A DNA stretch of 64,000 bases from Bacillota bacterium (lineage in GTDB: Bacteria; Bacillota; Halanaerobiia; B1SED10-174), in the NCBI GenBank assembly GCA_007122335.1, contig SKTZ01000021.1, positions 1-64,000 on the forward strand, read 5' to 3'. The first letter of the stretch is position 1, and each line of letters starts with the position of its first letter. Both the position numbers and the translations under genes were made by a program. Shown here piece after piece: positions 6,860 to 55,781 of the stretch. The notes below the pieces were generated by a model, which was not told the DNA's origin, did not search any database, and saw nothing but the letters and a program-made list of their open reading frames with translations.

Positions 6860-7080
6860 TTAAAAGCGTTGAAGGGAATGAAGGTCGAGAAAAGTTCTCA
6901 CAGAGAGGAACCGGTTGGTGCGAGGTTCTGGCTTTTCCGGTCAAGCCCTCCCGGAGCTGCAGAGCAGAAAGCTGCCGTTTGGGTTGCGTTAAAACCTTTG
7001 AGGCTTCTGGATTCAGAAGTGAAACAGGGTGGTACCGCGGGAAAGTCCTCGCCCCTGAACAGGGAAGGACTTTTTTTGTA
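6860..7080 (+). promoter_or_regulatory. T-box leader of alaS (alanine), putative GCC specifier at 6945-6947
   Basis: T-box sequence AGGGTGGTACCGCGG at 7026-7040; AGAGAGG...GGTTGGTGCGAG distal-loop motifs; GCC upstream of CTCCCGGAGC; terminator GTCCTcgcCCCTGaaCAGGGaAGGACTTTTTTT. Confidence 0.92.
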
Positions 7081-53403: not shown

Positions 53404-53660
53404 CTGGAAAAGAAGAAAGGATTTTCCTTTTTCCAAGATTTTTCTTTAAAACAACTGTGCCCTGCATTACTTGAAAAGAATGGTTGGGCCTTTAAAAACC
53501 TTTATTTTAGCGGGTTTTTTACTTCTAGCAAAAACGAAAAAGGGTTTAGGTGGGAAGAGTCCTTTCAAGAAAAGGTTTTTCTTGGTTAAAAAAGGAAGGA
53601 GTTATCTACAGGTTTGGCGAATCATACGACAACAAGGCAACTGCGGGAAGGGTGGTTTTT

Positions 53661-54275
53661 TTGCAGGAAAAACTTCGGGAAAGAATCGCTCAGCTCGAGG
53701 GCGTTTTAGCAGTTAATATTACTCAGGAAGAAGACGGGGAAATCCAAGAGATCCACGTTCTTTCTGATGAATCCCGCAACCCAAAAAGGTTGGTAAGAGA
53801 TATTGAGACCGTTCTTCAGGTTGAAACTGGGGAATCCTTTGACCATAAAAAGATCAGTATTGCCCAGGTAAATGAACAAAAAAAAGATGGAAGCCCCCTG
53901 GACAGGATTCAAATTTTGGGAGTTTATTTGAGGCCAAGAGAGCCGGTTTGCACAATTGAATTAAAATTTCGGGGAGAAGAGTACAGCTATAAATACCAGG
54001 GGGATGAAATGGATGAACCCCAGGAAATTGTTTTAAAGGCTCTAACCAAAGCTGTTGAAATGTTTATTAAACCACCCTTTCGAATTAAAATTAGGGATGT
54101 TCAGGAAACCCATATGCGAGAAAAAATTATCGTTATTATTATCCAGCTAAAGTGGAAACAGGGAGAAGAAATCCTTGTGGGTGCGAGTCTGGTTGATGAA
54201 AACATGCCTCTGGCACTTTCCAAAGCTTTTTTCCATGCTCTTAACAGGAAGTTGAACACAGTACTAGTTATCTAG
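53661..54275 (+). CDS. Conserved-looking hypothetical protein upstream of HD-GYP gene
   Basis: LQEKLRERIAQLEGVLAVNITQEEDGEIQEIHVLSDESRNPKRLVRDIETVLQVETGESFDHKKISIAQV; TTG 53661 with GGGAAGGGTGG upstream; ORF track starts at 53550. Confidence 0.6.
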   Translation: MQEKLRERIAQLEGVLAVNITQEEDGEIQEIHVLSDESRNPKRLVRDIETVLQVETGESFDHKKISIAQVNEQKKDGSPLDRIQILGVYLRPREPVCTIELKFRGEEYSYKYQGDEMDEPQEIVLKALTKAVEMFIKPPFRIKIRDVQETHMREKIIVIIIQLKWKQGEEILVGASLVDENMPLALSKAFFHALNRKLNTVLVI

Positions 54276-54317
54276 ATTTCTCAATGGCCGGGGACGAGCG
54301 GAGCATAACATATGAGC

Positions 54318-54356
54318 TTAGCCTACCTTCAAGAAAGATACTAGAAGGGAGGCTAA
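54318..54356 (+). promoter_or_regulatory. Hairpin sequestering the SD of the 33-aa ORF
   Basis: TTAGCCT-a-CCTTC / GAAGG-g-AGGCTAA, loop aagaaagatacta; the 3' arm contains GAAGGGAGG, the SD. Confidence 0.6.
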
Positions 54357-54360
54357 CAAA

Positions 54361-54462
54361 ATGAAGAAGAAACTCTTCATTCTTTTCACCACTGTGGTTT
54401 ATGTGGTCCTTTCTACCCTGGTTGCTCTGGGTGGAGATTCCGGACAGTTTGGCGCAAGATAA
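54361..54462 (+). CDS. Putative 33-aa small membrane/leader peptide
   Basis: MKKKLFILFTTVVYVVLSTLVALGGDSGQFGAR; signal-peptide-like KKK + hydrophobic stretch; SD gaagggagg. Confidence 0.55.
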   Translation: MKKKLFILFTTVVYVVLSTLVALGGDSGQFGAR

Positions 54463-54497
54463 CAGATAGGTCTTTAAAAAACCTCCCGGCCATTGAG

Positions 54498-54513
54498 ATC
54501 CTGATTGGAGGAT
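54498..54513 (+). promoter_or_regulatory. Hairpin over the SD of the HD-GYP gene
   Basis: ATCCT (54498-54502) - gattgg - AGGAT (54509-54513); SD GGAGG (54507-54511) can alternatively pair with CCTCC (54482-54486). Confidence 0.45.
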
Positions 54514-54518
54514 TAACC

Positions 54519-55781
54519 GTGCGCGACAGAGGATGGACAATATTTGTTACTACAATTTATTTAATCGCAGCGGGTTTTTTTATTTATTTTTTTGGAACAG
54601 ATCAAACTTATCTTGACCCAACAGAGTTGGGTTTGGTTATTTTGCTTACTTCACTTTTACTTCTTCTTTCCTTTGGAACCACCGTGGGAAGCGGTTCTGG
54701 CACCCACAGTTCAATAACCCTGCCAATAATTATACCCGCCCTGTACCTTTTGGGACCGTTTTGGGGTGGGTTTGTTTCTGCAATAGGGACAATCCAACCC
54801 AATCAAATTAAAAAAGGTTTTCCGGTATATATTTTTATCCTTAACCGAGCTATGATTTTTATTTCGGTTATTATAAGTTCATTCTGGTTAAGGTTTTTGG
54901 TCAATGGTGGATTTGAGTGGATTAATATTTGGATTGTTGCTGCAATTGGGTTTTCCTATAACTTGGTTAATAATATAATGCTTTGGGCTGGTCTTTGGGC
55001 CGACAGAAAACTTTCTTCAGGAAATAACTTTATTTTATTTGCCCTGGAAAGGACAAGAACTGTTTTTATTTCCACCCTTGTCGCAGTAATCTTTATCATT
55101 GTTTACCAGTCCCATGCTCTTCCGGGGATTTTAATTTTGTTTGCCCTGGTTTTTCTTTTTCGGGATGTTTTGCAGGCCAGATTTAAGCATATTAACAGTT
55201 TTTTTCAGGTTATCGAAAGCTTTGCCCGGGTAATTGATACCAAGGACCCTTATACCCGAGGGCATTCCGAGCGCGTGGCTCAATATGTTGAGGATATTGG
55301 AAGGAGAGCAGGGCTTTCCCCTATTCGTATCCCCCGGATAGTTCAGGCTGCAAAACTTCATGATGTAGGTAAATTGGGAATTCCAGAAGCCATTCTCCTG
55401 AAACCGGGCAGGCTGACTGCGCAGGAATATGACCAGATAAAATCCCACCCGGTAAGAGGTGAAAAGCTTTTAGAAGATATTGAAATGCTTGATGATTTAA
55501 TGGCCATAATCCGGCACCACCATGAACGTTACGATGGGAAAGGCTATCCGGATGGTCGCAAAGGTGAAGATATTCCTTTTGAAGCCCGAATTCTTTCCCT
55601 GGCCGATGCTTTTGACTGTATGACGACTGACAGGATTTATCGCAAGGCGATGAATAAAGAAGAAGTTTTGGAAGAACTGGAGAGGTGTTCAGGTACTCAG
55701 TTTGATCCCCACCTGACGAGAATATTAATTGATATGTTGCAGAATGATTTTTATGATGAAAACTTTGGCTGGCAAAAATAA
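54519..55781 (+). CDS. Multi-TM HD-GYP domain phosphodiesterase-like protein
   Basis: Polytopic N-terminus; HD-GYP: RGHSERVAQYVEDIGRRAGL, LHDVGKLGIPEAIL, HHERYDGKGYPDGRKGEDIPFEARILSLADAFDCMTTDRIYRKAM. GTG start. Confidence 0.93.
   Translation: MRDRGWTIFVTTIYLIAAGFFIYFFGTDQTYLDPTELGLVILLTSLLLLLSFGTTVGSGSGTHSSITLPIIIPALYLLGPFWGGFVSAIGTIQPNQIKKGFPVYIFILNRAMIFISVIISSFWLRFLVNGGFEWINIWIVAAIGFSYNLVNNIMLWAGLWADRKLSSGNNFILFALERTRTVFISTLVAVIFIIVYQSHALPGILILFALVFLFRDVLQARFKHINSFFQVIESFARVIDTKDPYTRGHSERVAQYVEDIGRRAGLSPIRIPRIVQAAKLHDVGKLGIPEAILLKPGRLTAQEYDQIKSHPVRGEKLLEDIEMLDDLMAIIRHHHERYDGKGYPDGRKGEDIPFEARILSLADAFDCMTTDRIYRKAMNKEEVLEELERCSGTQFDPHLTRILIDMLQNDFYDENFGWQK

Follow-up and report, generated by a model that had tools for sequence, protein, structure and literature searches.

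The window (the whole stretch of 64,000 nucleotides analysed here) carries a gene for a membrane HD-GYP protein downstream of an uncharacterised protein gene, and between the two lies a leader RNA with a short ORF (Table 1). The stop codon of the upstream gene (54273-54275) is separated by 3 bases from the 5' arm of a long-range stem, referred to here as P1. The SD of the ORF, GGGAGG (54347-54352), lies inside the 3' arm of a local hairpin whose anti-SD strand is formed by the 3' half of Motif 2, and no U-tract follows P1 in the window genome. Folding of the 250-nt region gave z = -4.4, and 0/200 shuffles were equally stable.

Table 1. Features of the locus, with positions counted from the first base of the window
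Feature	Position	Strand	Basis
Uncharacterised protein gene	53550..54275	+	ORF list; start codon uncertain
P1 5' arm, TCTCAATGGCCGGGG	54279..54293	+	Covariation with 3' arm in 27 genomes; Bacillota-wide arm swap
Motif 1, GAGCGGAGC	54296..54304	+	Alignments A4 and A7
Motif 2, GAGCTTAGCC	54314..54323	+	Near-invariant columns in A4
SD-sequestering hairpin, UUAGCC/GGCUAA and CCUUC/GAAGG	54318..54356	+	Pairing in 27 genomes
Micropeptide gene, 33 codons, MKKKLFILFTTVVYVVLSTLVALGGDSGQFGAR, signal-peptide-like	54361..54462	+	pN/pS; counterparts in class and phylum loci
P1 3' arm, TCCCGGCCATTGAGA	54484..54498	+	21 nt past ORF stop
HD-GYP gene SD, GGAGG	54507..54511	+	Sequence
Membrane HD-GYP c-di-GMP phosphodiesterase gene (predicted), 420 aa	54519..55781	+	Pfam HD_5; AlphaFold model; PDB comparison

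A previous sequence-only reading of this DNA had reported 14-bp perfect arms (TCTCAATGGCCGGG, 54279-54292, and CCCGGCCATTGAGA, 54485-54498), a hairpin whose 3' arm contains the SD of the ORF, and the 33-aa ORF itself. All three were found where it had placed them; the hairpin is conserved, and 300 dinucleotide shuffles of the region gave arms of 11 bp or less. Two shorter pairings fared differently. That of AGGTCTTT with AAAAACCT is present in the window but is not conserved, being missing in two genomes (G001 and G005), and the pairing of CCTCC (54482-54486) with the SD of the HD-GYP gene is likewise present in the window, but CCTCC is missing in the same two genomes and in the class Halanaerobiia. 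The switch that had been proposed on this basis, with the HD-GYP SD pairing with CCTCC to the exclusion of the P1 3' arm, is not upheld: close relatives have lost it, and the class does not have it.

The HD-GYP protein has a multi-TM N-terminal half and a Pfam HD_5 domain (9.8e-41) with an intact HHERYDGKGYP motif. In the AlphaFold model (mean pLDDT 84, pTM 0.52) the C-terminal half matches the HD-GYP structures 4mcw, 4r8z and 9rbz, and the membrane half gives a weak match to ECF S-components, which are small-molecule binders (best E 0.1, 4huq_S). With both the HD and the GYP motifs in its HD_5 domain, the product is, by its sequence, an HD-GYP c-di-GMP phosphodiesterase. The product of the upstream gene gave no Pfam, NCBIfam or PDB match above the cut-off. 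In most loci elsewhere in the phylum the unit closely follows a gene that, like this upstream gene, carries the C-terminal motif A[IVL]NR[RK], and the neighbourhood may form a conserved three-gene unit.

Conserved RNA structure in Halanaerobiia

Loci gathered around the orthologous HD-GYP gene in relatives carry the same unit 5' of that gene. Of the 31 class genomes with an HD-GYP ortholog, 28 yielded a single element each with the core covariance model, and none (0/28) of those without an ortholog yielded a credible one, a co-occurrence with Fisher p ~1e-13. In the three exceptions the element is divergent (G011) or reduced (G041), or the contig begins within the gene (G058). Weak covariance matches in G031 and G043 were inspected and judged false, and a third weak match outside the carrier set was seen in G025 (E 0.08). 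Every named record with the core pattern belongs to Halanaerobiales; Halanaerobium saccharolyticum, H. salsuginis, H. polyolivorans and Candidatus Frackibacter are examples, and the congeners of the window genome are MAGs labelled Halobacteroidaceae. Run over 300 phylum genomes, the class model returned class members only.

Structure in the class was assessed on a MAFFT alignment of 27 whole elements, built without structure. P1 was paired in 90% of cells, with changes on both sides in 14 of its 15 pairs; for the SD hairpin the corresponding figures were 91% and 4/9. Cells with double changes, taken over P1 and the hairpin together, numbered 100 compared to 36 in shuffles (0/500 shuffles were as good), sliding one strand as a control lowered pairing to 38-51%, and P1 was recovered independently by RNAalifold. 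Conservation of both the long-range stem and the SD hairpin, including the covariation in relatives that had been named as a check, bears out the earlier proposal that a cis-acting, structured RNA containing a leader ORF precedes the HD-GYP gene.

The frequent G-U pairs in the class stems speak for an RNA rather than a repeat at the DNA level. The alternative put forward had been a MITE-like insertion with terminal inverted repeats, and the unit is indeed bounded by inverted repeats. The search for further genomic copies returned one copy in the window genome, the locus is fixed in the class and common to many families, and the repeats differ between families yet stay paired through compensatory changes in which G-U pairs are kept. 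The insertion reading was rejected on copy number, fixed locus and compensatory repeat changes, and its probability is considered negligible.

The core motifs vary between groups. GAGCGGAGC is the form of Motif 1 across Bacillota, and GACTAGCTTA stands at this position in most other Halanaerobiia. Most class members have three copies of AGCUUAG, one ahead of the hairpin, one at the 5' base of the hairpin and one in the hairpin loop; in the window genus GAGCGGAGC replaces the first copy and the loop copy is absent. Directly 5' of P1, 17 of the 21 class members outside the window family carry AGGAnnT-N14-GAA(T/A) (0.15 expected), which we take to fit the sigma-H consensus. In the window family the element begins a few bases past the stop codon of the preceding gene, and transcription therefore probably starts further upstream.

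The micropeptide gene

Within the window genus pN/pS of the ORF was 0.13, with ratios >2 in the other two frames, and over the class it was 0.42, with no such signal in the other frames. Close phylum pairs gave a pooled value of 0.26, and the recent group f22 gave 0.79 on few changes. By these substitution patterns, purifying selection acts on the peptide ORF. Comparison of genomes here added two things that the sequence-only reading had missed: the ORF is a peptide gene conserved by selection, and the unit extends across Bacillota.

In the class the ORF is 28-34 codons long (G041 excepted), and K2, K3, T10 and W28 are invariant in the 21 genomes outside the window family, with residue 27, beside the invariant W, variable. 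The peptides start with basic residues and continue with a hydrophobic stretch, followed by small residues of the kind seen at signal-peptidase sites and by a short tail. Elsewhere in the phylum the peptide typically has 24-29 residues, follows MKxxxKxLxALxxLVLAGGAxFKW and ends like ...LVLAGGANFKW. The alignment behind the peptide profile (A8) was typed by hand, with an extra K in the G082 peptide and a shortened G109 tail, and served as a search profile only. At about 15 residues, the hydrophobic stretch is rather short to be a transmembrane helix. Small residues at -3/-1 with a tail of 3-9 residues were found in 103 of 104 peptides, compared to 61 expected in shuffled peptides.

Such a layout would suit secreted-peptide signalling, in which the adjacent HD-GYP protein would sense the tail of 3-9 residues (DTSKW, NFKW and the like) after its release and the RNA would do no more than tune expression; the cleavage itself is predicted only. 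The variable residue 27, the sigma-H-like promoter of the class and the strict pairing with one membrane protein type described below are in keeping with this, and sigma-H also drives the Phr precursors in Bacillus. On the other hand, the LAGGA segment is more conserved than is usual for signal peptides, and the membrane half of the enzyme resembles, weakly, an ECF S-component, a binder of small molecules. In the reduced locus of G041 (L033) P1 is kept, the core motif is lost and the ORF has 13 codons (MKKRIMANTSWWS), with an aromatic end and no hydrophobic part; for that lineage, this argues against a role in the membrane or in secretion. Secreted-peptide signalling is on balance rather unlikely.

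At four further loci, G062 (L133), G108 (L149), G338 (L180) and G074 (L181), the peptide is present and P1 or the core is unrecognisable. Persistence of the peptide under these circumstances suggests that it serves more than the RNA and argues against a mere timer.

Occurrence and pairing across Bacillota

The first sign of the unit outside the class came from two distant genomes, alike in layout and different in sequence. Searching 399 phylum genomes with a profile of the membrane HD-GYP protein yielded about 120 relatives of full or nearly full length, and the upstream regions of 82 of these, picked by protein score alone, were examined; one (G407), where the match lies inside the gene, was left out as unjudgeable. 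The peptide ORF was present in 79 of the 81 judgeable regions, from 35 further families (77 by detector and two, G144 and G076, by eye). It was absent at G232 and at the best G210 locus; another G210 copy has the ORF. A stricter ORF detector scored 68 of the 82 real regions, 1 in the reverse complements and 0.3 in shuffled sequences. Most of these ORFs are enclosed by a covarying stem and accompanied by AGCGGA-type motifs and a sequestered SD, and the RNA-peptide-enzyme arrangement spans about 40 Bacillota families.

Where the gene position is known, matches of the phylum core sequence profile at E <0.002 adjoin the HD-GYP gene or contig ends. In 250 genomes the peptide profile had about 60 strong matches, almost all of them at the HD-GYP locus, with a few at contig ends or of unassigned context (G077, G083, G163). 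To judge from these profile searches, the peptide ORF occurs essentially only before this type of membrane HD-GYP gene.

Model R2, built on the phylum alignment, contains no base pairs, since the variable P3 arms were misaligned by MAFFT, and is a sequence profile only; phylum pairing was tested alignment-free, by swapping arms between loci. For P1, native arms beat swapped arms with z = -17.8, in permutations that ignore kinship among genomes. The native partner was top-ranked in 11/73, partly because arms are common to related genomes, and it is the mean shift, not the rank, that carries this result. The P3 hairpin gave z = -14.3, and pairing of the SD region with the linker before P3 gave z = -6.2 (0/5000). 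This linker-SD pairing crosses a short CGGU/ACCG pairing, and a pseudoknot between linker and SD is therefore possible.

A strong stem around the ORF was found in 66 phylum loci. Its 3' arm begins a median of 12 nt past the ORF stop (10th-90th percentile 6-30), and a U-tract (>=5 U in 8) follows it in 41 of the 66 (62%) compared to 9% in the background. P1, as these comparisons describe it, is thus a stem that is variable in sequence and kept by compensation, that encloses the whole unit and that closes soon after the peptide stop.

This geometry invites comparison with a leader-peptide attenuator, in which the nascent peptide would stall the ribosome at or near its stop, as in TnaC or SpeFL, block P1 and permit read-through into the HD-GYP gene. 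The tightly kept length, mostly 24-29 codons, the aromatic or hydrophobic end beside the stop, the median distance of 12 nt to the P1 3' arm and the frequent U-tract would all be expected of such a device. Against it, the stop-to-arm distance varies widely and has no clear match to ribosome blocking, LAGGA is conserved as much as the last residues, the window genome has no U-tract, and the peptide persists in the loci mentioned above where P1 or the core is unrecognisable. Attenuation is accordingly regarded as unlikely.

Relation to known systems and proposed function

No Rfam 15 family matched the element at E up to 1-5, in keeping with the earlier remark that no known riboswitch class was recognised, and the c-di-GMP-I and c-di-GMP-II covariance models gave no match in the window, in 6 class loci or in 20 phylum loci. 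Pfam and NCBIfam had no entry for the element or the peptide, a plasmid database search with the region gave no match, and no paper on the element, the peptide or the RNA-enzyme pairing was found in the open-licence literature.

As in riboswitches generally, a conserved secondary structure lies upstream of a gene, and like the c-di-GMP-I and -II riboswitches the element is a structured leader before a c-di-GMP-related gene. It differs from those two in giving no match at the thresholds used and in having a closing stem that encloses an ORF. For a riboswitch proper, the AGCGGA/AGCUUA core would bind a ligand, c-di-GMP or another, and gate the peptide SD. The conserved motifs that stay unpaired, one of which sits in an apical loop, the covarying SD pairing and the nature of the gene concerned point in that direction; yet no Rfam family matches, the motif sequence differs between Halanaerobiia and other Bacillota, and an RNA-binding protein fits repeated short motifs at least as well. 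We consider a riboswitch proper improbable.

The selection on the ORF indicates a translated short upstream ORF of the kind found in leader-peptide attenuators, with co-transcription inferred from the layout. TnaC, SpeFL and the trp/his leaders likewise have a short ORF and then a stem, often terminator-like, before a structural gene; here the stem is long-range and takes in an upstream motif as well as the ORF, the SD of the ORF is sequestered by a structure of its own, and the peptide is conserved through the phylum and signal-peptide-like. Bacillus Phr precursors resemble the unit as short peptides of secreted-precursor type beside a possible sensor, and share with the Halanaerobiia a sigma-H-like promoter, but the present peptide is shorter (24-34 aa) and RNA-wrapped, and its neighbour is a membrane HD-GYP enzyme, not a Rap protein. 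KdpF and CydX are also tiny hydrophobic peptides encoded beside a membrane protein; the short hydrophobic stretch, the signal-peptidase-like end and the surrounding RNA structure set the micropeptide apart from them, and its partner binding is putative. The enzyme shares the HD_5/HD-GYP domain with HHExxDGxGYP with other HD-GYP phosphodiesterases and differs from them in its multi-TM N-terminal half and in the RNA-peptide unit upstream. To our knowledge, the ORF-enclosing stem, the phylum-wide conserved peptide and the strict pairing with one enzyme type are new.

The reading that we favour, with some confidence, is that of a leader-RNA class, absent from Rfam, that controls a functional micropeptide gene paired with an HD-GYP phosphodiesterase. 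Peptide and RNA would probably control, or work with, this c-di-GMP-destroying enzyme. In the mechanism proposed, the local structure with the AGCGGA or AGCUUA motifs, which pairs with the peptide SD, would gate translation of the peptide, and P1 would act as a long-range terminator or barrier setting the amount of transcription or translation that continues to the HD-GYP gene. A terminator role is not general, because about 38% of phylum loci and the window genome have no U-tract; in the window genome, for the same reason, P1 would act mainly on the mRNA beside the HD-GYP start. The peptide, for its part, would most likely act with the HD-GYP protein rather than as a translation timer only. 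Among its conceivable roles that of a small membrane partner is put forward tentatively, a secreted signal is somewhat less probable, a ribosome-arrest leader less probable again, and anything else quite unlikely. Whether the unit is a Bacillota-wide module, in which the micropeptide, encoded inside its regulatory RNA, would serve the membrane HD-GYP protein as its dedicated ligand or subunit and so link an extracellular or membrane cue to c-di-GMP breakdown, we consider evenly balanced.

HD-GYP enzymes of anaerobic Bacillota have few known inputs, and a dedicated RNA-locked peptide gene before one membrane HD-GYP gene would be a direct and testable input to c-di-GMP. The RNA is in addition a widespread structured class absent from Rfam, with an ORF-enclosing, often terminator-like stem that is unusual for a bacterial leader.

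Some further observations concern individual genomes. A tandem second copy of the membrane HD-GYP gene was seen at the same locus in G007 (L090), G115, G264, G216, G240, G153, G187 and G069, and no element is recognisable at the first of the two copies in G007. In G002 the HD-GYP gene is spread over two contig ends (L039, L092), with about 71% N-terminal and 94% C-terminal identity to the window, a pattern that suggests recombination or a chimeric MAG. Elsewhere in the window, positions 6860-7059 score marginally above the gathering threshold for the T-box leader (Rfam RF00230).
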